A stretch of 64,000 nucleotides of DNA from Salinibacterium sp. Lineage in GTDB: Bacteria > Actinomycetota > Actinomycetes > Actinomycetales > Microbacteriaceae. The position numbers and the translations under genes are program-made. Shown piece after piece: positions 12,803 to 45,710 of this stretch. Below the pieces are notes generated by a model. It saw only the letters and a program-made list of their open reading frames with translations, was not told where the DNA came from and searched no databases. Each line of letters starts with the position of its first letter. Within the stretch, counting starts at the first letter, position 1. The stretch spans positions 1 through 64,000 of the forward strand of contig JANXVG010000010.1 of the NCBI GenBank assembly GCA_025351795.1. The letters run 5' to 3'.

Positions 12803-12885
12803 AACTAATCTCCGATTCTCGGCCGTGCCGGTGAGTGTATCGCCTCGACACATCATGTCACGCGTCGCGCCGCTACCCTCGAAGA

Positions 12886-15027
12886 GTGACCTCGCCACTT
12901 GATGCTGTGCTGATTGCTGCCCTCGGCAGCCGCACGGCAGCTGCGTTTCAGAAGGGGCTCGGGCTCGCAACCGTCAGCGACCTGATCAGCCACTACCCGC
13001 GGCGCTACGCTCGGCGCGGTGAGCTGACCGCGCTCACCCAGTTGCCGATCGATGAGAATGTCACAATCGTGGCCGAGGTTCTTGAGGTGCGCGACCGGCC
13101 GATGCGCGCCAAGCGTGGCTCAATTCTTGAGGTCGTGATCAGCGACGGTACGGGCATCCTCACGCTCACGTTCTTCAATCAGGCCTGGCGAGCACCACAA
13201 CTGCGGGTCGGCGCGCGCGGAATTTTCGCGGGCAAAGTGGGTGAGTACCGCGGCACGCGGCAGCTCGCGCATCCCGACTACGAACTCTTCGAAGAGTCAG
13301 CGGATACCTCGCCCGAGGCCGCGCAGAAGTGGGCCGAGTTGCCCATCCCGATCTACCCCGCCACGGCCACAGTTGCGAGTTGGCAAATCCAGAAAGCGAT
13401 GGCGGTCGTGCTCGATACGTTACCTGCGCTGGACGATCCAGTGCCCCTCGAGGTGCGCAGGGACCGTGGGCTGCTCGGCTATGCGAAAGCGGTCGAGCTC
13501 ATCCACCGCCCGCAGAAGGATGCCGACTGGGGGGCTGCACGCAAGGCGCTGCGGTTTCAGGAGGCGTTCGTGCTGCAGGCTGCCTTGCTTCAGCAGCGCG
13601 CGCAACTTCGAGCGACCGTAGCGACACCGCGTGTCCCCGGGCCGATCGCCCTGGCCTTCGACGCGGCCATGCCATTCACGCTCACGCGCGACCAGGTGCT
13701 CGTCGGTGAAGAGATCGCGGCTGACCTGGCGTCATCCGCCCCGATGAACCGGCTCGTGCAGGGTGAAGTTGGGTCTGGCAAGACGCTCGTGGCACTTCGT
13801 GCGATGCTGACAGTGGCCGATTCGGGTGGCCAGTCTGCTCTGCTGGCGCCGACCGAGGTGCTTGCTTCCCAACACCTGAGGTCGATCGTGGCGACCCTCG
13901 GCCCAGATGTCGCCGCCCGCCTTCGCCCGACGCTGCTCACCGGTCAGTTGCCGGTTTCGGAGCGAAAGAAGGCGCTCCTCGCGGCTATCTCCGGGAGTGC
14001 GAGAATTGTGGTCGGCACGCACGCACTGCTGAGCGACACGGTGGGGTTTTTCGACCTTGGGCTGGTCGTCGTAGACGAGCAGCACCGCTTCGGCGTCGAC
14101 CAGCGTGAGGCGCTGAGGCTCAAAGGCTCGACTCCGCCGCACGTTCTCGTGCTCACGGCGACACCCATCCCGCGCACGGTAGTCATGACGGTCTTTGGCG
14201 ACCTGGACATCTCGATGATCGCCGAGCTGCCGGCGGGCCGATGGCCCATCGCGAGCTTCGTCGTGCCGCTCGCCGAGAAGCCGGGCTGGGTGAATCGGGT
14301 GTGGGAGCGGGTTGCCGAAGAGGTCGCCCTCGGGCGGCAGGCGTTCGTGGTGTGCCCGGCGATCGACCCGGCCGTCGTGGAGCAGCCGCTGGAGGGCGTC
14401 GACTCCACGAGACCGACCGCCAACGTGACCGATGTGACGGCAAGCCTGCGCGCGAACCCACTCACCACCGACCTGCACATCGCGAGCCTGCACGGACGCA
14501 TGTCGAGCGATGAAAAGGAGGCCGTGATGCGAGCGTTCGCGGCCCGCGAGCTCGACGTGCTGGTCGCGACCACCGTCATCGAGGTCGGCGTAGATGTTCC
14601 TAACGCCTCGGCCATGGTGATTCTCGACGCCGACCGGTTCGGCGTTTCACAGCTGCACCAGCTGCGCGGGCGGGTGGGTCGCGGCTCCGTCCCCGGGGTG
14701 TGCCTGTTCGTGACGGGCGCGGAGGAAGGCACACTCGCACGCGAACGAGTGGAGGCCGTGGCATCCACTCTCGACGGTTTCGAACTGGCTCAGAAAGACC
14801 TAGAACTGCGCCGAGAGGGCGACGTGCTCGGCAGCACGCAGTCGGGCGGGCGGTCGAGCCTGCGCCTGTTGCGGGTGGCGAAAGATGGCGAGCTCATTCA
14901 GGATGCCCGCGAGCTCGCGGCGGGCATCCTCGACGTCGACCCCACGCTCGATTCGCATCCAGCCTTGCGCGAGGCGCTCGCGAGGCGGCTCGATGCGACC
15001 GCTGCGGCGTTCCTCGCTAAGAACTGA
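12886..15027 (+). CDS. recG: ATP-dependent DNA helicase RecG
   Basis: RecG (713 residues) rewinds stalled replication forks and branch-migrates Holliday junctions. The N-terminal wedge/OB domain contains ISHYPRRYARRGELTAL; helicase motif I is GEVGSGKTLVALRAM, motif II is DEQHRFGVDQR (DEQH), motif III TATPIPRT, and motif VI QLRGRVGRG. GTG start follows TACCCT (12874-12879) by six bases, indicating a leaderless mRNA. Stop at 15027; about 200 bases follow before coaD in which nothing clear is seen beyond a short GGCCC/GGGCC stem. Confidence 0.95.
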   Translation: MTSPLDAVLIAALGSRTAAAFQKGLGLATVSDLISHYPRRYARRGELTALTQLPIDENVTIVAEVLEVRDRPMRAKRGSILEVVISDGTGILTLTFFNQAWRAPQLRVGARGIFAGKVGEYRGTRQLAHPDYELFEESADTSPEAAQKWAELPIPIYPATATVASWQIQKAMAVVLDTLPALDDPVPLEVRRDRGLLGYAKAVELIHRPQKDADWGAARKALRFQEAFVLQAALLQQRAQLRATVATPRVPGPIALAFDAAMPFTLTRDQVLVGEEIAADLASSAPMNRLVQGEVGSGKTLVALRAMLTVADSGGQSALLAPTEVLASQHLRSIVATLGPDVAARLRPTLLTGQLPVSERKKALLAAISGSARIVVGTHALLSDTVGFFDLGLVVVDEQHRFGVDQREALRLKGSTPPHVLVLTATPIPRTVVMTVFGDLDISMIAELPAGRWPIASFVVPLAEKPGWVNRVWERVAEEVALGRQAFVVCPAIDPAVVEQPLEGVDSTRPTANVTDVTASLRANPLTTDLHIASLHGRMSSDEKEAVMRAFAARELDVLVATTVIEVGVDVPNASAMVILDADRFGVSQLHQLRGRVGRGSVPGVCLFVTGAEEGTLARERVEAVASTLDGFELAQKDLELRREGDVLGSTQSGGRSSLRLLRVAKDGELIQDARELAAGILDVDPTLDSHPALREALARRLDATAAAFLAKN

Positions 15028-15226
15028 GGCCGCGGTGCAGGCTCGCGGTCCAGATTCGGCCCGGTGTCCTGGTGGCGTGGTGCGCACTGTCGGGTGGTTA
15101 TTTGGTGGGGTGGCACGCGACCGAGGCCCACCGTCGGGCCGTCGCGTCGCGGCCGAGTCGCCATCAAAAAGCACGCGAGCGGGTTAGGGAAGCCGTTCGT
15201 TAACCGACAGGCGGTATCGTGAAGTC

Positions 15227-15709
15227 ATGAGCCGGATCGCCGTCGTCCCTGGGTCCTTCGACCCCGTCACCCTGGGCCACATCGACGTTATCGGGCGGGC
15301 GGCTGGCCTCTTCGACCAGGTGCATGTCTTGGTCGTTCACAACCCAGATAAGGCGGCTCTGCTACCGATTGCCCAGCGTGTCTCGCTGATCGAGCAGTCG
15401 ATTCGGGATGCGGGGCTTCCGACCAACATTCTTGTCACCAGTTGGAGCATGGGATTGCTGGTCGACTATTGCACGGATGTCGGTGCCACCGTTCTCGTGA
15501 AGGGCATCCGCTCCCAGATCGACGTGGCATACGAAACACCGATGGCGATCGTGAACCGAAATCTGGCCGGCGTCGAGACCGTGTTCTTGTTACCGAACCC
15601 TGAGCACGCCCACGTGTCGAGTTCGCTCGTGCGTCAGGTCGCCGCGCTTGGTGGCGATGTGAGTCCGTACGTGCCGAGGAGCGTCGCTCAATACTTGCAG
15701 CATCCCTAG
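15227..15709 (+). CDS. coaD: Pantetheine-phosphate adenylyltransferase
   Basis: CoaD (160 residues) converts 4'-phosphopantetheine and ATP to dephospho-CoA, the penultimate step of coenzyme A synthesis. Nucleotidyltransferase signature [18 protein letters not shown] at residues 8-25, [12 protein letters not shown] around the middle, and the family C-terminal motif [23 protein letters not shown] is six bases after TATCGT (15215-15220), so leaderless translation is likely. Normal length. Confidence 0.96.
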
Positions 15710-15747
15710 ACCACCCGGCCAATTACATCCATCGCAAGGAGCCCATC

Positions 15748-16209
15748 GTGGCGAAGATATCCAACGAGAAGTCGAGCAAGAAGTCCGGGAAGAAGTCGTT
15801 GGCCGCGCTCGCCGCGCACACCAAGAAGCATGACAAAAAGGTGACGAAAAAGGCGGCGGAGAAGGTGGCAGCCGCGGCGAAGGCGAGCCACAAGAAGGCC
15901 AAGCGCGCCGCCGAGAAGACCGTGCTGAAAGCAAAGCACGCGGCCAAGGCCGCGGCGAAAGCAGCGAAGTCCGCCGAGAAGGAGAAGTCCGCTTCGCTCG
16001 AAAAGAAGGCGAAAGCGGGAATGAAGCGAGATCGCGCGCTCGCGAAAGACGTGACGCCTTCCAGCAAGCCGATCATGCAGTGGCCAGCCACAATCGAGCC
16101 GTCCGAGTCATGGACGGTGGTAGCCTTGCGCGCCCGAGCACGCAAGCTCGGCGTGCCTGGCTACTCACGTATGACGAAGGCCGAGTTGCTCGACACGCTG
16201 CGCCCGTAG
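15748..16209 (+). CDS. Histone H1-like Lys/Ala-rich protein with C-terminal SAP/Rho-N-like helix pair
   Basis: 153 residues. Roughly residues 1-105 are a low-complexity tail of lysine and alanine (KKAAEKVAAAAKASHKKAKR and similar), like eukaryotic H1 tails and actinobacterial nucleoid proteins. The C-terminus, SWTVVALRARARKLGVPGY followed by SRMTKAELLDTLR, matches the helix-extension-helix pattern of Rho N-terminal/SAP nucleic-acid-binding domains. It likely binds DNA or RNA and compacts the nucleoid (inference). GTG start with AAGGAG six bases ahead, and only 38 bases after coaD. Confidence 0.75.
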   Translation: MAKISNEKSSKKSGKKSLAALAAHTKKHDKKVTKKAAEKVAAAAKASHKKAKRAAEKTVLKAKHAAKAAAKAAKSAEKEKSASLEKKAKAGMKRDRALAKDVTPSSKPIMQWPATIEPSESWTVVALRARARKLGVPGYSRMTKAELLDTLRP

Positions 16210-16266
16210 CCCCCGCGCCGTCGTCGCGAACTGCGACGACGGCCCGACAGCTAACGTCGCGTCGCA

Positions 16267-16533
16267 TCAGCGCAGTGGCACCGTGAGGCGTAGCGCGCGC
16301 TCGGCCACTCGTTCGCGCTCCAGTCGCGCACGGTGCTGCTCGATGTGGTTCGCACGATGCTCGCGAGACTCGATCGGGTGTGGTCGGCGACCCCACCGGA
16401 TGAGGGCCACACCTACGCGCAGTGCGAGTAAGTCGAGTGGGCGCACCCGACGTGCAGGCTGCACCGTGTGGTCATAGTGCGGTTGGGGTGGGTGGTCGTG
16501 GCGACCGGGGGCGGTCGACAAGATGGTGTTCAT
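16267..16533 (-). CDS. Small basic hypothetical protein
   Basis: An 88-residue protein starting at ATG 16533 with AGGAA seven bases upstream. It has one amphipathic/hydrophobic stretch (RPLDLLALRVGVALIRWGRRP) followed by a charged helix rich in Arg/Glu/His (REHRANHIEQHRARLERER). The codon pattern (G/C third positions) fits a real gene, and this layout resembles small hypothetical proteins common in Microbacteriaceae. No function can be assigned; the hydrophobic part is too short and charged to call a membrane helix with confidence. Confidence 0.6.
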   Translation of the reverse strand: MNTILSTAPGRHDHPPQPHYDHTVQPARRVRPLDLLALRVGVALIRWGRRPHPIESREHRANHIEQHRARLERERVAERALRLTVPLR

Positions 16534-16717
16534 AGTGCATGTTCCTGACTGCTGGCGGCCTGCGGTGCAGGCTGACGCGGTTGCATCGGCGATAGCTGGA
16601 TTCGACGGGACTACTCGTGACGGCAGATACGCGACGGCGTTAGTGGACAGACGTCGTCAATGGGCGGGTGACCCGAGAGCGCACAGAAAAACTGCGGCGG
16701 GTCAGGCTACAAACCGC

Positions 16718-16786
16718 TTAGTCGGTAAAAACGCGGAGGAAGCCGGCGATGGTACGGGACATTCCCGCAGAAATTGCACACATCAT
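16718..16786 (-). CDS. Possible 22-residue small ORF
   Basis: An ATG pair at 16786/16783 is preceded by GAGAGGAG (16793-16800) at ideal spacing and opens a 22-codon frame, MMCAISAGMSRTIAGFLRVF plus two residues. It lies in the 480-base gap before cofE. Evidence is only the strong ribosome site; it overlaps another candidate on the opposite strand, so at most one is likely real. Confidence 0.25.
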   Translation of the reverse strand: MMCAISAGMSRTIAGFLRVFTD

Positions 16787-16880
16787 GCTCGGCTCCTCTC
16801 GTCGTTGGCGTGTCACCACCGTACTGGCGGGCGTGCGGTCGCTGCAAGCAATGACACGAGTTGTGCGCGTCTCGTTATGA
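16749..16880 (+). CDS. Possible 43-residue small ORF
   Basis: ATG 16749 has GGAGGA (16735-16740) eight bases upstream and opens a 43-codon frame beginning MVRDIPAEIAHIMLGSSRRW, stopping at TGA 16878-16880. The product is basic with no recognisable motif. It overlaps the minus-strand 22-codon candidate. Outside these two and the VOC remnant, nothing else is recognisable between 16534 and 17010. Confidence 0.25.
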   Translation: MVRDIPAEIAHIMLGSSRRWRVTTVLAGVRSLQAMTRVVRVSL

Positions 16881-16889
16881 AAACGTCGC

Positions 16890-16982
16890 TTAAGGGCGAT
16901 AGTGCGTAATCTCCCAGATGTGGCCAGCCGGGTCGGCGAGCTCGAACGCGACTTTCCCAGCACGATCAGGTGACGGCCGCAC
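16890..16982 (-). pseudogene. C-terminal remnant of a VOC/glyoxalase-family protein
   Basis: The minus strand encodes GKVAFELADPAGHIWEITHY followed by RP and a TAA stop at 16890. This is the terminal beta-strand block of vicinal-oxygen-chelate proteins, including the metal-ligand Glu in WEI. Upstream the frame is closed by a stop within about ten codons, and the region then becomes the cofE promoter, so the first three quarters of the gene are missing. A truncated relic left by rearrangement next to the F420 genes. Confidence 0.5.
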
Positions 16983-16998
16983 GCGGCCCCGGCGTCCC

Positions 16999-17004
16999 TA
17001 AACT
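16999..17004 (+). promoter_or_regulatory. -10 box (TAAACT) of cofE
   Basis: TAAACT ends six bases before the GTG start of cofE and there is no ribosome-binding site, which implies a leaderless transcript. No -35 match is evident. Confidence 0.45.
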
Positions 17005-17010
17005 GAGGCA

Positions 17011-17787
17011 GTGACTCTTACCGTTTTTGCCGTTGCCGGCATCCCCGAGATCATCGCCGGGAGTGACCTCGCCACGATCATCGGGGATGCGATCGAGGCG
17101 GCGGGCGAGCGGTGCGCTCTCGAAGCGGGTGACATCCTCGCGGTGACCTCCAAGATCGTGAGTAAGGCCGAGGGACGGCAGATCGCCGCGGCGGATCGCG
17201 AAGATGCGATCACGCAGCAGACGGTGCGCGTCGTTGCGACGCGCACGCATGCCGGAGGCGTCACTCGCATCGTCGAGAACCCACTTGGGCTCGTGCTCGC
17301 GGCAGCCGGCGTCGATTCGAGTAACACGCCAGTCGGCTACGTTCTGCTACTGCCCGTCGACCCAGACGCGTCTGCGAAGCGTATCTGCGCGGCGCTCAGG
17401 GCCAGGTTCGGCGTTCGCATCGGTGTGATCATCTCAGACACGCTCGGTCGGCCGTGGCGACAAGGGCAGACGGATGTCGCGATCGGGGCTGCTGGAATGC
17501 GGGTGCTCGATGACCTGCGGGGTTCCACCGATGCCGGGGGCAGGCGCCTCGACGTCACGGTAGCGGCGTCAGCGGACGAGATTGCGGGTGCAGCAGATCT
17601 CGTCAAGGGCAAGGCCAGCGGTTTACCGGTAGCGATCGTGCGCGGACTCGGGCATCTCATAGCCAATCTCGACGAACCGGGAGCGGTCGCTATCGTGCGG
17701 CCGGCCGACCAAGATATGTTTCGGCTGGGTAGCGACGAGGCGTGGCAGGAAGGCTACGAAGCAGGACTTCGGTCGGCGACGACCTGA
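17011..17787 (+). CDS. cofE: Coenzyme F420:L-glutamate ligase (F420-0:gamma-glutamyl ligase)
   Basis: CofE adds the gamma-linked glutamate tail to F420-0 using GTP and a divalent metal. 258 residues with the family motifs [18 protein letters not shown] (about 40-57), [20 protein letters not shown], a [22 protein letters not shown] block and [15 protein letters not shown]. It is the single-domain archaeal-type form; the C-terminal nitroreductase-like domain found in mycobacterial FbiB is absent, so the final reduction/dehydration of the precursor tail must be done elsewhere. It lies 92 bases before cofC in the same direction. Confidence 0.93.
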
Positions 17788-17879: not shown

Positions 17880-18593
17880 ATGACAGGTGGATCGCCCACG
17901 CCGGACGCCACCGGGGCACACCGACAGGCGCCAGCGTCGCGGGGCTGGGTAGTGGTCATTCCGGTCAAGGGAACCGACAATGCGAAGTCGCGGCTCGGGG
18001 CGGCGGTCGAGCTCGCGACGGCGATCGCCCTTGACACCGTAACGGCCGCGCTCGGCGCTGCGCCGGTCGTCGTGGTCACGAGCGTCGTGGCAGCGCCGTC
18101 GTTCGCGGCCCTCGGCGCACGAGTGGTCGTGGATCTCGGTGGCGGGTTGAATGCAGCAGTCCGCAGCGGGATTGCGGCCGCGGAAGGGGAAAACGTGGCG
18201 GTGCTCCTGGGAGACCTGCCGTCATTGCGCAGCGATGAGTTGGTAGCAGCTCTCGACGCTGCCGAAGCGCACCCGCGAGCCATGGTCGCGGATGCGGAAG
18301 GACTCGGCACCGTGTTGATCACGGCACTGCGCGGGGTCGAGCACTCGCCGGCATTCGGTGCCGGTTCTCGGGTGGCACACATCGCGGCGGGCTATCGGGA
18401 ACTGCCCGTTGCCGCAATCAGCGGCCTCAGGCGCGATGTCGACACCGAACAACAACTCCGATCAATTGACGCGAAGCGACTCGGCGAGCGAACTCGCGCG
18501 ATAGTCGCAGCCACGCTCGACGGGGAGGGCCCAGGCACTCCGCGCGTGACGCCAGCGCCGGCGGACGATCCGGGGAGCAACGGACTGCGCTAA
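17880..18593 (+). CDS. cofC: 2-phospho-L-lactate / phosphoenolpyruvate guanylyltransferase
   Basis: CofC (FbiD in mycobacteria) activates phosphoenolpyruvate or 2-phospholactate with GTP, giving the donor used by CofD in F420 synthesis. 237 residues; the MobA-like nucleotidyltransferase fold shows in [16 protein letters not shown] (about residues 25-40), [18 protein letters not shown] and [18 protein letters not shown], and the later [13 protein letters not shown] 20-residue non-conserved N-terminal leader precedes the first strand. Its TAA stop overlaps the fbiC stop on the other strand (CTAA, 18590-18593). Confidence 0.9.
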
Positions 18594-21208
18594 CGCCCGC
18601 TGACGACCTCTATCGGCAGTAGTCGCAGCGACTTTCCCGTTGCGGCGTATCCGGTGGCAGCGTGTAGTCGCGCGGTGGCACGGCGCTCGTCGGATGGTTC
18701 GCCGTAGGTCGTGGTGCGCTGGTAGGCGTCACGACCGATCACCGAGGTGAGTGCCTCCAGCTCGTCCACGGTCTTCTCCGAACCGTTGTCTGCGCCAGCC
18801 ATGCGGCTAATGGTTTCCTCCATGAGGGTGCCGCCCACGTCATCCGCGCCGCCCTGCAGCATGAGCTGAGTGCCTTCGGTTCCCAACTTCACCCATGACG
18901 TCTGAATGTGGTCGATGCGGCCGTGCAGCATGAGCCGCGCCACGGCGTGTACGGCCCGATTCTCCTGTGGCGTCGGACCTGGCCGCGCAACACCGGCCAA
19001 GTACACGGGCGAGTTCATGTGCACGAATGGCAGCAGAACGAACTCGGTAAAGCCGCCGGTCTCATCCTGAATCTGCGAGAGGGTGCGCAAATGGCCTACC
19101 CAGTGTGTGGGGTTGTCGACGTGCCCGTACATCATCGTCGAACTCGAACGAATGCCGAGGCGGTGTGCCGTAGTCACGATCTCGATCCACGCGGATGCCG
19201 GCAACTTGCCTTTCGTGAGCACCCACCGCACCTCGTCATCGAGAATCTCGGCAGCCGTGCCGGGAATCGTGTCGAGCCCAGCAGCCTGAGCCTCGGCCAG
19301 GAAATCGTGATAGCTGAGGCCGGTGCGAGTCGCACCGTTGACGATCTCCATCGGGCTGAACGCGTGCAGGTGGATGCCGGGTTGGCGAGCCTTCACCTCG
19401 CGCGCCAGCTCGAAATACGCCGTTCCGGGAAGGTCGGGATGGATGCCGCCCTGCATACAGATCTCGGTCGCTCCGATATTCCACGCTTCATCGACGCGGT
19501 CGCCGACCTGTTTCATCGACAGCGTGAATGCGTCGGCATCGGTGCGTCGCTGCGCGAATGCACAGAAGCGGCATCCGGTGTAGCAGACGTTGGTGAAGTT
19601 GATGTTGCGGTTGACGACGTAGCCCACGCGGTCGCCGACGGTGTCGTGGCGCACCCGGTCGGCGAGGCTGGCGAGCGCGTCGAGATCGGCACCCTCGGCA
19701 CCCAGCAACGTCAGATACTCGGCGTCGCTCAACCCAGCCGGGTCGGTCTCGGCTTTCGCGAGGGCGGCGAGCACGGCCGGGTCGCCCGTTCGACCCACGG
19801 CGCGCCGGGTGTCGCCGACGGTCTCGCGCAGTTCTGACCAGTCACCGTAGACATCCTCAAAGTCGCTGCGACGGTCGCCCGTTCGCCCGACCGTATCGAT
19901 CTCGGTGTGCAGGTTAACGCGACCGGAGCCGAGCCACTCGGGGTCAGGTTCCTGCCACGGCAAGCCGACCGGAATGCGGCCCTCGACAGCCAGCCCATCC
20001 GAGGAGGCAAGGGCGCGAATATGCGGAAGTACGCGCGGGTCGAGCCACGGCTCTTCGGCACGCACATAGTGCGGGTGCACAGTTAGGCGCTCGCGGAGGG
20101 TGTAGCCGGCATCCGCGGTCAGGCGAGCGAGCTCGTCGATGTTCGGCCACGGTCGCTCGGGGTTAACGTGGTCGGGTGTCAGGGGAGAAACCCCACCCCA
20201 GTCGTCGATTCCGGCGCGCACGAGCATGGCGAGTTCGGGCTGGTCGGTGAGGTTTGGTGGTGCCTGAAGTCGTGCGCCGGGTCCGAGCACGATGCGCGAA
20301 ACGGCCACAGCAGCGATGTACTCCTCGAGCGGCAGATCATCGCGACGCATCATGGCGGTCGACATTTTCGACCGGAAATTCTGGATGATGATTTCCTGGA
20401 TGTGTCCGTGCCGACGTGACGCAGCGCGCAGGGCGAACAAACCATCGACCCGCTCGGCGTAGGTCTCGCCGATGCCCAGCAGTAGGCCCGTCGTGAACGG
20501 TACATTGCTGCGACCGGCATCCTCAATCACTCGCAACCGAACGGCCGGGTCTTTATCTGGCGAGCCGAAGTGTGCCTCGCCCTTCTCGGTGAACAGTCGG
20601 GTCGAAGTGGTCTCGAGCATCATGCCCATCGACGGCGACACCGGCTTCAGCCGCTGGATTTCCTCCCAGGTCATGACGCCGGGGTTCATGTGCACGAGTA
20701 GGCCGGTCTCTTCGAGGATGCGAATGGCCATCGCCCGCAGGTAGGCGATCGTCGAGTCGTACCCGTTGGCATCGAGCCACTCCCGGGCCTCGGGCCAGCG
20801 CTCCTCCGGGCGGTCGCCGAGCGTGAAGAGCACTTCTTTGCAGCCGAGCGCTGCGCCCGCACGCGCGACTTCCAGAATCTGGTCTGGCGACATGTACATC
20901 TCTTTGCCCTCGCGGGTGAGCTGGGCTGGCGTCTTAACGAATGCGCAGTAGTGGCAGCGGTCTTGACACAAGTGCGTGACCGGGATGAAGACCTTACGCG
21001 AGTAGGTGATCACGCCCGGTCTGCCCGCCTTCTCGAGCCCGGCGTCTCGCACCCGGCCGGCAGCGACCAGCAGGCGATCGAGGTCGACACCGCGCGCGTG
21101 CAAGAGTGTTTCGGCTTCGGTGGCATCGACGGTCACGCCGCTCTCAGCACGCTTGAGTGCACGACTCAGAGCGGAGGCGGTCGGAATAAATGACGTGCTA
21201 TCTGACAT
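18590..21208 (-). CDS. fbiC: 7,8-didemethyl-8-hydroxy-5-deazariboflavin (FO) synthase, fused CofG-CofH
   Basis: FbiC (872 residues) makes the deazaflavin chromophore FO from tyrosine and 5-amino-6-ribitylamino-uracil. Two radical-SAM modules are visible: the N-terminal CofG half with [10 protein letters not shown] (about residues 86-95) and the C-terminal CofH half with [10 protein letters not shown] (about 547-556), each a CxxxCxxC cluster site. Other signatures: [49 protein letters not shown] and [15 protein letters not shown]. The fusion is the actinobacterial form. No clear ribosome site. Intact and full length, unlike the neighbouring cofD. Confidence 0.96.
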
Positions 21209-21278
21209 AGTGCCACGCAGCTTTCATGTCGCAGACGAAGCGCCCAAAGCCAGGCGTGGAACCAGATTCGGTACAACT

Positions 21279-21976
21279 CTAACCCCGAGATGTTTCGAGC
21301 GCGTCTCTCGCGAGTTGTGCGCTCGTCGCGAGGTCGCGCATCCACAGTGGAACGACGACGGGTCGAATTCCGCTGGCCTCGATGATGGGGGCGAGCGCAG
21401 CATCCGACTCATCGATGAGCCAGGCGTCGATAAGCCCACCCGCGCTTCGGGCTCCGTAGTGCAGAGCGACGGCATCGGCCGACGTGGTGACGCCGATTGT
21501 TGCGAGGCAAGCGTCTGCCATGCCGCGTATGGCTGCTCCCGCGATGATCGGTGACACCCCGACCACCTGGGCGGATGCCGCGACCACCGCGTCGCGAATG
21601 CCGGGAATGCCGGGAATGCCCAGGATGGTGCCGATCGAGACCACCGGGTTGGACGGCGCCACGAGAATCACATCAGCGCCTGCTATCGCGTCGAGCACGC
21701 CCGGCGCCGGCTGGGCATCCGCGATTCCGGTCTGCACAAACGCCGTTGCGGGCAGCCTAGCGCGATGACGGGTCGACCACTCCTGAAAGTGCATGGTCTC
21801 CCGCTCTCGGTCAGCACCTGGGTTTCGACCTCGTGGTCGGTTGCTGGCAGCAGTCGAACGCCGAGATCCCACCGAGCGCTGACCCGCTCGGTCTTCCCGA
21901 CTCTGCCCCAACCGCGAACCTCGTCGTTTTCGCCCGCGAGGGTGTACATGATGGAGTCAAGGTTAGGTGCAGTGGC
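21279..21976 (-). pseudogene. cofD: Broken cofD/fbiA (2-phospho-L-lactate transferase)
   Basis: The minus strand retains two pieces of CofD, the enzyme that transfers the phospholactyl/PEP moiety to FO. Piece A (21976 to about 21800) reads NLDSIMYTLAG, NDEVRGWGRVGKTERV and then WDLGVRLLPATDHEVETQV, directly after the stop codon of the MocR gene. Piece B, in another frame (about 21800 to 21279), reads MHFQEWSTRHRARLPA, APSNPVVSIGTILGIPGI and SPIIAGAAIRGMADA. Against the family, the first 70-80 residues (GGxGGAR nucleotide region) are missing, about 45 residues between WGR and RWDLG are deleted, and a frameshift lies near 21800. It cannot make a working enzyme. Confidence 0.85.
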
Positions 21977-23305
21977 TTACGCGCGCGCCGCATCGGCCAG
22001 GGCGGAGCCGATGGCGGCGAAATTATCACGGACCAGCCCCACCGTGACCCGCACGAAGTTGCGATCGGTGCCGGGATCGGCGATGAACGCTGTGCCTGCC
22101 GCCACCCGGATGCCCGCGGCGGCGAGTTGTACGACCGCCGTTCGCTCGTTGTCCACTTCGAGCCAGGTGTTGATTCCGTCTGAAGCCGTCGCCGGATAGC
22201 CATTGCGGCGAAGAGCCTCGGCGAGTTCGCGTTGCCTCCCGTTGTACACGCGCCGGGCATCGCTCACTTCGGCGATCGATGTCGCGTCGGTGAGCAGATC
22301 GTTCAGGATGCGCTGGAGTATTCGCGAAGTCCAGCCAGGCCCCAGCATGCGCCTCGCCACTATTCGGTCGATCAGGTCTGCCTCCCCGCCGATTGCAGCG
22401 ATGCGCAGGTCGGGGCCGTGCGACTTGGAGAAACTGCGAATGTGCAGCACACGATCAGGAATCCAGTGCGCGAGACTCACTTCGGGGGAACTGCTGATCT
22501 GGCCCGAGTGGTCGTCTTCGATGACGATTGTGGATGCCGCGTTGCGATGGGTGCTCAGGATGCGGGCGAGTTCTCGCGCGCGCTCCGCCGTCATCGACGC
22601 CCCGGTCGGGTTCTGCGCCCGCGGTTGAAGTACGAGAGCCGCTGGCCGGATGGCCAAAGCGTCGACGAGTTTGTCTGGCCGCATGCCGTGTGCGTCGATA
22701 GCGACCGGAACGCGCTCGGTGTTGAACTGGTCGAGGAGGTCGAGGATGGGGGGAAACCCCGGGTCTTCCACAATCACCCGGTCGCCGAAGCGCACCACTT
22801 GCTCGAGCGCTCTGGATAGCGCGTCGAGCGCGCCGTCGACAACGGTGATGTGCTCGGGATTGCCCGGCCACGACGCTCGTAAGCTGCGTTCGAGTTCGGG
22901 GATTACCGGTACGTCGAGATAGCTCGCGGTCGAGGCACTGAGCGACACCCGGGCGAGTGCTCGCGCGAGTGTGGGAAGCAGGGTGGGGTCGGGAGTACCC
23001 GTGGAGAGGTCGAGGCGTGCGTCAGGAACACCGACCATTCCGCGCGATCGCGGCGGAAGCCAGTTATGCGGGGCCGGTCGTACGAAACTCCCGCTACGCC
23101 CCCGCGATACGATCAGGCCCACACCGTTCAGCGCCTGCCAGGCATGGCTTACTGTGGCTGGACTCACCCCGAGGTCGCGCGCGAGATCTCGCACGGTCGG
23201 CAGCCGGTCGCCGGGCCCAAGCTCGCCAGAGGTAATCAGCCGGGCAATCGCCGCAGCGATTCCGTCCGGGGTCGGATTGGTGATCTGCAGGGCTACCGCG
23301 TGCAT
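21977..23305 (-). CDS. MocR-type regulator (GntR winged helix fused to PLP aminotransferase domain)
   Basis: 442 residues. Residues about 1-70 form a GntR winged helix (GDRLPTVRDLARDLGVSPATVSHAWQAL). The rest is a fold-type-I aminotransferase domain with VVDGALDALSRAL, the proline turn QNPTGASMT, EDDHSGQIS and the PLP-lysine region IRSFSKSHGPDLRIA. MocR regulators sense PLP-bound ligands such as amino acids or GABA; the neighbouring operon yields a beta-amino acid, a plausible effector (inference). It is divergent from that operon across 98 bases. ATG 23305 chosen with a G-rich site upstream. Confidence 0.9.
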   Translation of the reverse strand: MHAVALQITNPTPDGIAAAIARLITSGELGPGDRLPTVRDLARDLGVSPATVSHAWQALNGVGLIVSRGRSGSFVRPAPHNWLPPRSRGMVGVPDARLDLSTGTPDPTLLPTLARALARVSLSASTASYLDVPVIPELERSLRASWPGNPEHITVVDGALDALSRALEQVVRFGDRVIVEDPGFPPILDLLDQFNTERVPVAIDAHGMRPDKLVDALAIRPAALVLQPRAQNPTGASMTAERARELARILSTHRNAASTIVIEDDHSGQISSSPEVSLAHWIPDRVLHIRSFSKSHGPDLRIAAIGGEADLIDRIVARRMLGPGWTSRILQRILNDLLTDATSIAEVSDARRVYNGRQRELAEALRRNGYPATASDGINTWLEVDNERTAVVQLAAAGIRVAAGTAFIADPGTDRNFVRVTVGLVRDNFAAIGSALADAARA

Positions 23306-23403
23306 CCGAACCCCCGTAAGTTTTACTTCACCGTCACAGCATGAAATAAAAAAGAAATGTTTACGCGGCATAATAACAAAAGAACTACAGCCGGAGGTTT
23401 CGA
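23306..23403. promoter_or_regulatory. AT-rich divergent promoter/operator region
   Basis: The 98 bases between the MocR gene and the catabolic operon are strikingly AT-rich for this genome. They contain CATAAT (23370-23375), a good -10 for the operon, and two mutually related patches, GTAAGTTTTACTTC (about 23318-23331) and AAATGTTTAC (about 23357-23366), that could be MocR half-sites. GGAGG lies six bases before the operon's first ATG. Confidence 0.45.
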
Positions 23404-24252
23404 ATGACCGTCGTACGCGCAGCACTCACCCAGACCACCTGGACAGGCGACAAAGAATCGATGATCGCGAAACACGAGCAGTTCGCACGGGATGCGGCAG
23501 CTCAGGGCGCGCAGATCGTGTGTTTCCAGGAACTTTTCTACGGCCCGTACTTCGGCATTATTGAAGACGCCAAGTACTACGACTATGCCGAGCCCGCCGA
23601 TGGGCCCGTAGTGCAGCGCTTTCAGAAGCTGGCCAAAGAATTAGCACTGGTGATCGTGCTCCCCATCTACGAGGAGGAGATGCCCGGTGTCTACTACAAC
23701 ACGGCCGTCGTCATCGATGCGGATGGCACCGCGCTCGGCAAGTACCGTAAGCACCACATCCCGAACCTCGACCGGTTCTGGGAGAAGTTCTACTTTCGGC
23801 CAGGTAACCTGGGCTACCCGGTCTTCGACACCGCGGTTGGCAAAGTGGGCGTCTACATCTGTTACGACCGCCATTTTCCCGAGGGATGGCGCGAACTCGG
23901 GCTCGGCGGCGCAGAAATCGTCTTCAACCCTTCCGCCACCAAGCCCGGTCTATCGAACCGGCTGTGGGAGATCGAACAGCCAGCCGCTGCTGCAGCGAAC
24001 CAGTACTACATCGGAGCAAACAACCGCGTCGGAACCGAGACCGAAGAGTTCGGCGACCTCGCCGTCACCTTCTATGGCAGCTCGTATTTTGTCGATCCGC
24101 GTGGCAACTACGTGGGCGACGTGGCCAGTCACGACCAGAGTGAGATCGTTGTACGCGATCTGGATCTCGACGTCATTCGCGACGTGCGCAACGCATGGCA
24201 GTTCTATCGGGATCGCCGCCCCGACTCGTACACCGCTACCGTGGCGCCATAA
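23404..24252 (+). CDS. Beta-ureidopropionase-like carbamoyl amidohydrolase (nitrilase superfamily)
   Basis: A 282-residue CN-hydrolase. The catalytic Glu-Lys-Cys triad is present: CFQELFYGPYFG (Glu), GKYRKHHIPNLDRFWEKFYF (Lys) and VYICYDRHFPEGWRELG (Cys). It closely resembles N-carbamoyl-beta-alanine/N-carbamoylputrescine amidases, which release CO2 and ammonia from carbamoyl amines. With dihydropyrimidinase next door (15 bases), the likely substrate is N-carbamoyl-beta-alanine or its methyl homologue, third step of reductive pyrimidine breakdown. First gene of the operon; strong ribosome site GGAGG. Confidence 0.88.
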   Translation: MTVVRAALTQTTWTGDKESMIAKHEQFARDAAAQGAQIVCFQELFYGPYFGIIEDAKYYDYAEPADGPVVQRFQKLAKELALVIVLPIYEEEMPGVYYNTAVVIDADGTALGKYRKHHIPNLDRFWEKFYFRPGNLGYPVFDTAVGKVGVYICYDRHFPEGWRELGLGGAEIVFNPSATKPGLSNRLWEIEQPAAAAANQYYIGANNRVGTETEEFGDLAVTFYGSSYFVDPRGNYVGDVASHDQSEIVVRDLDLDVIRDVRNAWQFYRDRRPDSYTATVAP

Positions 24253-24267
24253 GGGTACGAGCGGTCA

Positions 24268-25701
24268 ATGAAGACTCTCATCAAGAACGGAATGGTCGTT
24301 AACTCGACTGGCACGGTATCCGCTGACGTGCTCATCGACGGCGAGACAATCACAGCGGTGCTCGCGCCCGGCTCGACGCTGCTCGGCTTTGACATCGAGT
24401 CGAACGTCGACACGGTGATCGACGCGGACGGCAAGTACGTGATCCCCGGTGGCATCGACGCGCACACTCACATGCAGATGCCGTTCGGTGGCACCGAAGC
24501 GAGCGACACTTTCGAGACCGGAACACGCGCCGCGGCGTGGGGCGGGACAACCTCGATCGTCGACTTCGTGGTGCAGTACGCGGGTGAGAGCGTGCTCGAC
24601 CAGTACGCGCTATGGCAGCAGAAGGCCGCGAGCAACTGCGCCATTGACTACGGGTTCCATCAGATACTTTCTGACGTGCAAGACTCCTCGCTCATTGCGA
24701 TGGACGAGCTCCTGAAGGAAGGTGTCTCGAGCTTCAAACTTTTCATGGCGTACAAAGGCGTCTTTCTTTCGGATGACGGCCAGATCACGAAAGCGATGCA
24801 AAAGGCCGCAACCAACGGTTCGATGATCATGATGCACGCCGAAAATGGGTCGGTCATCGATCTGCTCGTGCAGCAGGCCATTGCCGCCGGAAACACCTCT
24901 CCGCTCTACCACGGGCTTACTCGCCCGTGGCAGGCCGAGGAAGAGGCCACCCACCGTGCGATCATGCTCGCCAACCTCACCGGCGCTCCGCTCTATGTGG
25001 TGCACGTCTCCGCTAAGCAGGCCGTCGCTCAGATCGCTGCTGCTCGTGACAATGGTCAGAATGTGTTCGGCGAAACCTGCCCGCAGTACCTGTACTTATC
25101 CCTCGAGGAGAACCTCGGGGCGCCGGGATTCGAGGGCGCTAAGTGGGTGTGTTCCACCCCGCTGCGGTCGAAAGCGGAGGGGCACCAGCACCACATGTGG
25201 CAGGCGTTGCGCACCAACGACATCCAGATGGTGTCCACTGACCATTGCCCGTTCTGCATGAAGGGCCAGAAAGACATGGGCATCGGCGACTTCTCGAAGA
25301 TTCCGAATGGCATCGGCTCGGTCGAACACCGCATGGATCTGCTCTATCAGGGCGTCGTTGAAAGCAATATTTCGCTCGAGCGCTGGGTCGAGGTGACCTC
25401 GACTACGCCCGCGCGCATGTTCGGGATGTACGGCAAGAAAGGGGTAATCCAGCCTGGTGCCGATGCGGATGTCGTGATCTACGATCCGCACGGCCACACC
25501 TCGATCGGGATGCCTGAGGAGGGTCGAACTAAGACCCACCACATGAACATGGACTACTCCGCGTGGGAGGGCTACGAGATCGACGGTCACGTCGACACAG
25601 TGCTCTCGCGCGGCAAGGTGATCGTTGACAACAACGAGTACATCGGGGCCAAGGGCGATGGCAGGTACCTCAAGCGCAGCCTCTCGCAGTATCTGATCTG
25701 A
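24268..25701 (+). CDS. hydA: Dihydropyrimidinase (D-hydantoinase)
   Basis: A 477-residue cyclic amidohydrolase that opens dihydrouracil, dihydrothymine or hydantoin rings to N-carbamoyl amino acids. Metal site residues: GGIDAHTHMQMPFGG (HxH), the carbamylated-lysine region SSFKLFMAYKG, MMHAENGSVID, YVVHVSAKQA and the Asp in STDHCPFC. Close in length and motifs to bacterial dihydropyrimidinases rather than allantoinase. Lies between the carbamoyl amidase and the LLM oxidoreductase. Confidence 0.93.
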   Translation: MKTLIKNGMVVNSTGTVSADVLIDGETITAVLAPGSTLLGFDIESNVDTVIDADGKYVIPGGIDAHTHMQMPFGGTEASDTFETGTRAAAWGGTTSIVDFVVQYAGESVLDQYALWQQKAASNCAIDYGFHQILSDVQDSSLIAMDELLKEGVSSFKLFMAYKGVFLSDDGQITKAMQKAATNGSMIMMHAENGSVIDLLVQQAIAAGNTSPLYHGLTRPWQAEEEATHRAIMLANLTGAPLYVVHVSAKQAVAQIAAARDNGQNVFGETCPQYLYLSLEENLGAPGFEGAKWVCSTPLRSKAEGHQHHMWQALRTNDIQMVSTDHCPFCMKGQKDMGIGDFSKIPNGIGSVEHRMDLLYQGVVESNISLERWVEVTSTTPARMFGMYGKKGVIQPGADADVVIYDPHGHTSIGMPEEGRTKTHHMNMDYSAWEGYEIDGHVDTVLSRGKVIVDNNEYIGAKGDGRYLKRSLSQYLI

Positions 25702-25741
25702 TGGCTCACTTTTATGCGCGCGAGCGCGGGATGGTCTGATC

Positions 25742-26770
25742 ATGCAATTCGGAGCAGTACTCCAGACCAACCCGCCAGCGTCGCGCACGGTGTATCTCGC
25801 CACGCTCGCCGAGCAGTACGGATTCGAGTACGTGTGGACGTTCGACTCGCACTTGCTCTGGCAGGAGCCGTACGTGATCTACAGCGCGATTCTCGCGGCG
25901 ACGCACCGCGTGATCGTGGGCCCGATGGTGACCAACCCGGCGACCAGGGACTGGACGGTGACGGCATCGGTGTTCGCTACTCTCAACGAAATGTACGGCA
26001 ATCGCACGGTCATCGGCATCGGTCGCGGCGATTCGGCGGTGCGCGTGACGAACGGCGCGCCCACGACCCTCAAAACGCTGCGGGAGTCGATTCACGTCAT
26101 CCGCGAACTCGCGAACTCGCGCTCGGTCGAGTACCACGACGCTCAGCTACAGTTTCCCTGGTCGAAGGGCTCACAAGTCGAGGTATGGGTCGCCGCCTAC
26201 GGCCCGCTGGCCCTCAAGCTCGCCGGTGAAGTGGGTGACGGTTTCATCCTGCAGCTCGCCGACCTCGACATCGCCGAGTGGATGATCACGACCGTTCGGG
26301 GTGCCGCCGAGGCCGCCGGCCGCGACCCGATGTCGATCAAGTTCTGTGTTGCAGCTCCGATGTACATCGGCCCGGATACCCCAGAGTCGATCGAGCACAT
26401 GCGCAATCAGACCCGCTGGTTCGGGGGAATGGTCGGCAACCACGTCGCTGACATCGTGGCCAAGTACGGGTCGGATGGATCGGTTCCGCAGGCCCTCACC
26501 GACTACATCAAGGCCCGCGCGGGTTACGACTACAACCAGCATGGCCTTGCCGGCAACACCCACACCGACTTCGTGCCAGACGAAATCGTCGACCGCTTCT
26601 GCGTGCTCGGCACCGCAGAGCAGCACATCGAGAAGCTGAAGGCATTGAAAGAGCTTGGGGTCGACCAGTTCGCGGGCTACCTGCAACACGACAACAAAGA
26701 AGAGACGTTGCGCGTGTACGGCGAGACGGTGATCCCTGCTCTGCGCGACGTCATCGTTGCCAAGACATGA
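25742..26770 (+). CDS. LLM-class (luciferase-like) F420-type oxidoreductase of the catabolic operon
   Basis: A 342-residue TIM-barrel luciferase-like protein: YGFEYVWTFDSHLLWQEPY, VTNPATRDWTVTASVFATL, and the GIGRGDSAVR loop that binds the cofactor phosphate. It resembles the subfamily annotated as F420-dependent that recurs beside dihydropyrimidinases (TIGR03842 as I recall it). In this operon it occupies the slot of the missing dihydropyrimidine dehydrogenase, so F420H2- or FMN-dependent reduction of a pyrimidine, or oxygenation of one, is the working hypothesis. Cofactor choice is inferred from family and from the nearby F420 genes. Overlaps the first permease by four bases. Confidence 0.82.
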   Translation: MQFGAVLQTNPPASRTVYLATLAEQYGFEYVWTFDSHLLWQEPYVIYSAILAATHRVIVGPMVTNPATRDWTVTASVFATLNEMYGNRTVIGIGRGDSAVRVTNGAPTTLKTLRESIHVIRELANSRSVEYHDAQLQFPWSKGSQVEVWVAAYGPLALKLAGEVGDGFILQLADLDIAEWMITTVRGAAEAAGRDPMSIKFCVAAPMYIGPDTPESIEHMRNQTRWFGGMVGNHVADIVAKYGSDGSVPQALTDYIKARAGYDYNQHGLAGNTHTDFVPDEIVDRFCVLGTAEQHIEKLKALKELGVDQFAGYLQHDNKEETLRVYGETVIPALRDVIVAKT

Positions 26771-44915: not shown

Positions 44916-45710
44916 ATGAGTGAACGTCGAGTGCGTCTGGGAGTCCAGATCCAGCCTCAGCACGCGCTGTACCCGACGATACGCGACACCGTGCGGCAAC
45001 TCGAAGATCTCGGCGTGGACATCCTGTTCAACTGGGATCATTTCTTCCCGCTGAGTGGCGACCCGAACGGCATGAACTACGAGGCCTGGACGGTGCTCGG
45101 TTCCTGGGCTGAGATCACGAGCCGTGTCGAGTTTGGCACTCTGGTGAATTGCAACAGTTACCGCAACCCCGATCTGCAGGCAGACATGGCACGCGGGCTC
45201 GATCACATTAGTGCTGGCCCCACCGGCACTGGCCGCTTCATCCTCGGCATGGGCTCCGGTTGGTGTGAACGTGACTACGACGAGTACGGCTACGAGTTCG
45301 GCACGGCGGGCCAGCGATTGGATGCCCTCGCGCAGGCTCTCCCACGCATCGAAGCGCGGTGGGCGACGCTCAACCCGGCCCCGACCCGCAAGATTCCGGT
45401 GCTCATCGGTGGTGGTGGCGAGAAGAAGACCCTGAAAATTGTGGCACAGCACGCCGACATCTGGCACAGTTTCACTGCGCCTGCTGAGCTCCCTCACAAA
45501 ATCGAGGTGCTCGCGGAGCACTGCGCGGCGGTTGGTCGCAACATTTCCGAGATTGAGTTCTCGAACGAGCAACGCGGCACGGATGTTCGCGTGGCCGACG
45601 AGCTGCGCGACCTCGGTGTCACGCTGTTCACGATGGGTATCTCCGGGCCGCACTACGACCTCGACACGGTGAAGTTGTGGTTGGCATGGCGAGACGCGCA
45701 GAACGGCTGA
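44916..45710 (+). CDS. LLM-class F420-dependent oxidoreductase (second copy)
   Basis: 264 residues of the luciferase-like barrel: VDILFNWDHFFPLSGDPNG, VEFGTLVNCNSYRNPDLQAD, the cofactor-phosphate loop GRFILGMGSGWCERDYDEYG and IPVLIGGGGEKKTLKIVAQH. Typical of actinobacterial F420-dependent reductases of unknown substrate. Monocistronic; ATG six bases after TAGGCT (44904-44909), so leaderless. Its presence implies the cell uses F420, which bears on the broken cofD nearby in the window. Confidence 0.85.
   Translation: MSERRVRLGVQIQPQHALYPTIRDTVRQLEDLGVDILFNWDHFFPLSGDPNGMNYEAWTVLGSWAEITSRVEFGTLVNCNSYRNPDLQADMARGLDHISAGPTGTGRFILGMGSGWCERDYDEYGYEFGTAGQRLDALAQALPRIEARWATLNPAPTRKIPVLIGGGGEKKTLKIVAQHADIWHSFTAPAELPHKIEVLAEHCAAVGRNISEIEFSNEQRGTDVRVADELRDLGVTLFTMGISGPHYDLDTVKLWLAWRDAQNG

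Follow-up and report, generated by a model that had tools for sequence, protein, structure and literature searches.

The window, that is, the whole stretch of DNA analysed here, comprises bases 1 to 64000 of the 69686-base contig C88, which belongs to an assembly of 97 contigs and 2.52 Mb that is most likely the metagenome-assembled genome of a Microbacteriaceae bacterium. It carries a cluster of F420 genes in which fbiC, cofC and cofE, as stated in the earlier note, are intact; the three score above the cut-offs of their NCBIfam models (NF006687, TIGR03552 and TIGR01916). Next to fbiC and a MocR-type regulator gene lies what is left of cofD. The features of this locus, and those of a second contig, C56, are listed in Table 1.

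Table 1. Features of the F420 locus in the window and of contig C56. Positions refer to the window unless C56 is named.
Feature	Position	Strand	Basis
recG and coaD, conserved locus anchor in relatives	12835..15709	plus	CoaD 168 bits, cut-off 103; synteny
coaD-cofE interval, position of FGD and of a second LLM gene (LLM2) in relatives	15710..17010	no strand	synteny; FGD and LLM2 both absent
cofE, F420-0:glutamate ligase, intact	17011..17787	plus	TIGR01916 221.6 bits, cut-off 180.65
cofC, 2-phospholactate guanylyltransferase family, intact	17880..18593	plus	TIGR03552 116 bits, cut-off 105
fbiC, fused CofG-CofH FO synthase, 872 aa, intact	18590..21208	minus	NF006687 1445 bits, cut-off 1018
cofD relic (pseudogene)	21279..21976	minus	tblastn and translation; Pfam CofD and TIGR01819 in C-terminal half only
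MocR-type regulator, GntR and aminotransferase domains; stop 6 bases from relic	21977..23425	minus	profile matches, translation
Carbon-nitrogen hydrolase ('amidase'), dihydropyrimidinase (TIGR02033) and TIGR03842 LLM F420-type oxidoreductase	23404..26770	plus	profiles, synteny
FGD, last 249 residues, cut by contig end	C56, before 769		TIGR03554 447.6 bits, cut-off 420
LLM2 scrap, 27 N-terminal residues	C56 769-849		
fbiC scrap, 32 N-terminal residues	C56 936-841	opposite to LLM2 scrap	
Intact cofD	C56 2063-1086		
Cupin-like frame, below Pfam cut-off	C56 2815-3147		
Nitronate monooxygenase	C56 3180-4259		

The cofD of the window had been called a pseudogene, and it is a real one: it carries more than one disabling lesion, and intact homologues stand at the same place in relatives. 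With the intact CofD of C56 (325 aa, described below) as tblastn query against window positions 18001-24000, the relic falls into two pieces on the minus strand that lie in different frames. Piece A (21970-21782) covers residues 56-162 apart from a 44-residue gap, and piece B (21797-21285) covers residues 158-325 with 68% identity; the stop codon of the relic is at 21281-21279. The damage agrees closely with what the earlier note had described. The N-terminal region is indeed missing, as residues 1-55 find no match within 18001-24000; the internal deletion, estimated at about 45 residues, measures 44 (132 bases) and is flanked by short imperfect direct repeats encoding ERVSA and DRITA; the frameshift reported near 21800 falls in the overlap of the two pieces, 21782-21797; and the MocR stop codon (TAA, 21979-21977) precedes the start of the relic by 6 bases. 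The homology to CofD is not a chance one, since both Pfam CofD (profile positions 133-253 of 290, E 8e-21) and TIGR01819 match the relic; the TIGR01819 match is confined to profile positions 144-300 of 301 and reaches 136 bits against a cut-off of 257.

The metal-binding aspartates of FbiA are given as D45 and D57 (PMC7253369). The relic has neither ligand, the site of D45 being deleted and that of D57 reading N (APNLDS), with residue numbers transferred by counting along the alignment of C56 CofD with FbiA 6uvx. Lesions of this kind might be errors in a fragmented assembly (97 contigs), but the lesions are three in number and independent in position, a metal ligand has been replaced as well, the internal deletion sits at a natural repeat pair and the neighbouring genes are intact, all of which makes this explanation extremely improbable. 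Over 155 codons of piece B, comparison with ten intact genes (that of C56 and nine of relatives) gave a mean pN/pS of 0.31, a blunt measure in that the compared history mostly predates the decay; six intact genes, measured likewise, gave 0.27-0.34, and the value of the relic is not raised. This fits recent decay, and the loss of the window cofD is probably recent.

On the other side of the cluster, the interval between coaD and cofE, a tblastn search of window positions 15700-17020 for relics of FGD and LLM2 gave a best E of 0.02, within a Lys/Ala-rich gene, and no credible trace of either. That gene (15748-16209) encodes a 153-aa protein with a Rho_N-type domain and occupies the position that FGD and LLM2 have in relatives. 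The recG product is RecG-type, yet below the cut-offs of the RecG models, and the carbon-nitrogen hydrolase likewise scores below the cut-off of its best model, TIGR03381. The amidase-dihydropyrimidinase-LLM block, of which this hydrolase is part, is found at the far side of cofD in relatives. As to the two LLM F420-type enzymes ascribed to the window, one is clear (25742-26770; TIGR03842 576 bits, cut-off 295), whereas the other candidate (44916-45710) has a Pfam Bac_luciferase match only.

In relatives with a full set of genes the order is recG, coaD, FGD, LLM2, cofE, cofC, fbiC and cofD, followed by MocR, amidase and hydantoinase. This ancestral order was seen in loci L103, L106 and L112, and also in L109 as far as its stretch extends. 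In these same four loci the genes run amidase-MocR-(other genes)-cofD-fbiC-cofC-cofE; the expectation that sister strains would show MocR in line with cofD and fbiC is therefore upheld as to order, but not as to direct adjacency of MocR and cofD. Seven loci have 4.7 to 7.7 kb between the two genes, and the Herbiconiux locus L116 has about 0.8 kb. A MoxR-DUF58-transglutaminase module lies between them in six of nine relatives' loci (L101, L103, L106, L107, L109 and L112) and was not found in the other three (L098, L116 and L128). With the nine relatives' loci as controls, tblastn found none of this module in the window, in C56, in eight further contig pieces of the genome or in G002. Because spacing and module content vary in this way among relatives, the deletion that joined MocR to cofD in the window may have removed anything from less than 1 kb to several kb. 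The joining itself, as proposed in the earlier note, holds, and its extent is perhaps larger than was noted there. G002, the other member of the genus with an FbiC over the cut-off, has an intact cofD next to the amidase gene and no MocR gene there.

A second cofD elsewhere in the genome had been put forward as one way out, and a TIGR01819 search of the whole assembly indeed revealed two places, the window relic and an intact gene on C56, a contig of 4865 bases. Its 325-aa product matches TIGR01819 over essentially the full profile (positions 1-299 of 301) with 305.6 bits against the cut-off of 257. Residues 1-322 align with FbiA 6uvx (E 6e-90), and both metal-ligand aspartates are present, as D46 and D58 when counted along this alignment. 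The protein is predicted to be active. That the match might be a YvcK-type relative of CofD was considered and rejected, as it passes the CofD equivalog cut-off.

The remainder of C56 is a damaged version of the same cluster. Its LLM2 scrap is 59-77% identical to the LLM2 of L103, L109 and L106 and 63% identical to an intact LLM2 homologue on contig C86 of the same assembly, and its fbiC scrap shares 26 of 32 residues with the window FbiC. The two scraps overlap by 9 bases, as expected of a single deletion joint; given the gene order of relatives, C56 is explained by one deletion with its endpoints near LLM2 codon 28 and fbiC codon 39. Judged by their genes and gene order, C56 and the window locus descend from the same ancestral cluster. 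Their contents are complementary, with fbiC, cofC and cofE kept in the window and FGD and cofD kept on C56. Elsewhere on C56, a 174-base stretch (L031 2549-2722) has an 89% identical copy at positions 4922-5095 of contig C84 of the same assembly, and neither C56 nor any of three further pieces of this genome's contigs matched an Rfam family at gathering scores.

C56 did not arise as a recent copy of the window locus. When the 96 bases of its fbiC scrap were compared with 16 sequences, the window fbiC was the least similar (58/96) and L108 the most (76/96), and this makes transfer more likely than recent duplication and leaves some room for contamination. In the CofD tree the relic and the C56 gene are not sisters, and both are poorly resolved; the trees were quick searches with SH-aLRT support only, built from about half of the 80 loci after matches below set limits of identity and length had been left out. 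The origin of C56 would be either transfer or an old duplication. A duplication inside the lineage followed by complementary loss, which differs from the reading that we prefer in origin only, would account for the single ancestral gene order behind both loci and for their complementary losses. It is quite unlikely, as the relic and the C56 cofD are 68-70% identical in amino acids, about as cofD of different species are, fail to pair in the tree, poorly placed though both are, and as the C56 fbiC scrap is closer to other genera than to the window fbiC.

Does C56 belong to this genome? Its terminal 141 bases recur without a mismatch at the end of contig C25, and an identical 99-base stretch is shared with the start of contig C65. 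A common metagenome assembler works with word sizes of 141 and 99, and the shared ends look like a repeat that interrupted several contigs in a single assembly. Third-position GC of the C56 FGD and CofD genes is 0.79, which lies within the range seen for genes of the window (0.72-0.83) and is lower than in relatives, whose medians are 0.90 (26 loci) and 0.91 (78 loci), although at least six relatives' cofD have equal or lower values (0.71-0.78). The right half of C56 stands at 0.62-0.63, below the window and similar to genes of C25 (0.63-0.72). When 100 sequences were ranked by tetranucleotide similarity to C56, contigs of its own genome took the first four places and two other own pieces came 17th and 25th; as a yardstick, an own contig ranked first for each of 13 window pieces of C56 size. 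The gene half (positions 1-2100) taken alone is nearest to relatives' loci, a comparison that is biased by homologous genes. What places C56 in the genome is binning, composition and shared ends, three lines of evidence that partly depend on one another; composition probably entered the binning.

If C56 were instead a contaminant from another Microbacteriaceae member of the sample, the genome would be without CofD and make FO at most, or its real cofD would be located in the few percent that were not assembled. The small size of C56, the distance of its fbiC scrap from the window fbiC and its affinities speak for this: loci of Glaciihabitans/Lacisediminihabitans and the like come closest to its CofD, FGD and fbiC scrap, whereas the window CofE and CoaD find their highest identity in their own genus (80% to G008 and 87% to G004, respectively). 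However, three products of the window, FbiC, amidase and CofC, likewise find their nearest counterparts in Glaciihabitans/Lacisediminihabitans, so that this affinity alone does not single out C56. The exact end matches with C25 and C65, the low, window-like third-position GC, the listed contamination of the assembly (0.11) and the near absence from the family of genomes with fbiC and without cofD (1/68; see below) also stand against contamination, which we consider unlikely. Both loci would then reside in one cell.

We therefore consider it probable that the genome tolerates the loss of the window cofD by virtue of C56, which contributes another version of this ancestral cluster, truncated in a different way, and that the F420 pathway is split between the two versions. 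In the window, cofD is dead through a deletion that reaches from just behind MocR to cofD codon 55, the repeat-flanked loss of 132 bases and a frameshift. On C56, a single deletion from about LLM codon 28 to about fbiC codon 39 would have removed cofE, cofC and most of fbiC, leaving FGD and cofD. F420 would then be made by FbiC, CofC and CofE of the window locus together with CofD of C56. The pathway is most likely still working, and the window pseudogene is most likely harmless, with the second cluster, perhaps a foreign one, supplying cofD.

To place this locus in its family, we surveyed 299 Microbacteriaceae genomes, in which cofD was found in 131 and a strong fbiC match in 68. Both genes occur in 67 genomes, cofD without fbiC in 64 and fbiC without cofD in a single one, G306, counts that are not independent because the genomes are related. 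Put differently, fbiC is absent from 64 of 131 cofD genomes and cofD from 1 of 68 fbiC genomes. The states are nested: fbiC, cofD and cofE in 67 genomes, cofD and cofE in 63, cofE alone in 31 and none in 136, with G306 and G265 as exceptions. For fbiC, 73 matches were listed, five of which (G181, G183, G224, G233 and G257) had a best E weaker than 1e-20 and were counted as absent; 13 of 174 cofE matches were set aside by the same limit; and 128 of the 131 cofD genomes are over the family cut-off, three below it. The genus table omits the fbiC-only G306 (95% complete, contamination 6) and counts G265 (82% complete) as cofD plus cofE, though its cofE was not found. Single-contig genomes of at least 99% completeness make up 12 of the 64 with cofD and without fbiC, and 6 of the 31 with cofE alone. 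Since the states are mixed within 15 of the 50 genera that have any of the three genes, F420 genes must have been lost or gained many times. As side observations, the cofE-alone genome G224 has a short, stop-containing fbiC fragment (C142:2965-3204) that matches 94 profile positions with E 9e-15 and may be a relic, and G299 has two cofD matches over the cut-off, on contigs C136 and C50, which may reflect redundancy or contamination. The F420 locus of Glaciihabitans tibetensis (L102) contains no fbiC.

These counts bear on the proposal, made in the earlier note on account of the dead cofD in the window cluster, that the strain produces FO or a new deazaflavin and is on the way to losing F420. 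We found no support for it and rejected it: an intact CofD is encoded on C56, cofC and cofE are intact, and the family loses fbiC without cofD (64/131) far more often than cofD without fbiC (1/68). Such a course of events is very improbable here.

In the genus of the window, all 27 genomes have cofE, 14 have cofD and 6 have an fbiC-type gene, 2 of them over the cut-off. Strong cofC matches, with E values of 4e-25 or lower, are present in each of the 14 cofD genomes and in no others; 10 of the 14 exceed the cut-off. We read the loci of 6 of the 13 cofE-alone genomes; in five, an FGD-like gene (75-79% identity to that of C56) and a second LLM gene lie near cofE, and in the sixth, G003, the second LLM gene was found and the FGD-like gene was not. 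The five loci that keep both are L078, L080, L082, L083 and L084 (G001, G005, G017, G009 and G015, respectively), and the FGD of G001 is over the equivalog cut-off (640.9, cut-off 420). Among four cofE-alone genomes, pN/pS of cofE is 0.09-0.13 in five pairs, with synonymous sites near saturation; among cofD-bearing genomes it is 0.19-0.32 in three pairs. Four members of the genus carry a divergent FbiC with 48-50% identity to that of the window (L067, L072, L073 and L074; G016, G021, G022 and G024), which was perhaps re-acquired; in three of the four it is remote from cofD and cofE and has an FGD-like gene (58%) in its vicinity. A homologue of the FbiB C-terminal domain (dehydro-F420 reductase) over the cut-off was found in none of the 27 genomes, which leaves the last reduction of the mycobacterial route unaccounted for.

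The simplest reading of the nested pattern suggests salvage of FO or F420-0; a novel FO synthase or a new role of CofE are the alternatives. Tentatively, and with somewhat less than even confidence, we propose that F420 biosynthesis in Microbacteriaceae is being dismantled from the top, repeatedly, because neighbours supply many members with FO or F420-0, and that the window genome is a snapshot in which one damaged cluster has been patched by another with different damage. In such a dismantling fbiC would go first and cofC and cofD next; what would stay is cofE together with F420 enzymes, for instance FGD. FO genes are said to co-occur with F420 genes in most organisms in a review (PMC8498797), the main text of which makes no mention of salvage, uptake, auxotrophy or scavenging. 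A limited literature search, covering few subscription papers, found nothing on F420 or FO auxotrophy in Microbacteriaceae or on F420/FO salvage. Were repeated dismantling to prove true, F420 precursors would be shared goods in soil and water communities, and the nested loss makes F420/FO salvage directly testable in cultured strains. Taken alone, the window cofD is an ordinary pseudogene neutralised by a second copy. The main interest lies in the complementary damage of two clusters and, more so, in the family-wide nested loss of F420 genes; the case also cautions that a pathway judged broken at one locus can be whole across two remnants.

Compared with CofD/FbiA proteins (TIGR01819; 6uvx and others), C56 CofD keeps the N-terminal GGVGG, NxSDD and PDLD motifs, unlike the window cofD, which is without the first 55 residues and a 44-residue stretch, is frameshifted and has N at the second metal ligand. 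Compared with the F420 cluster of Microbacteriaceae, the window and C56 each represent a truncated form: the window is without FGD, LLM2 and a working cofD, and C56 is without cofE and cofC and has only scraps of LLM2 and fbiC left. Complementary loss in redundant gene clusters is a general evolutionary pattern. The window and C56 resemble it in that each keeps what the other has lost, and depart from it in that the second cluster, on C56, looks foreign or old and not like a recent duplicate.
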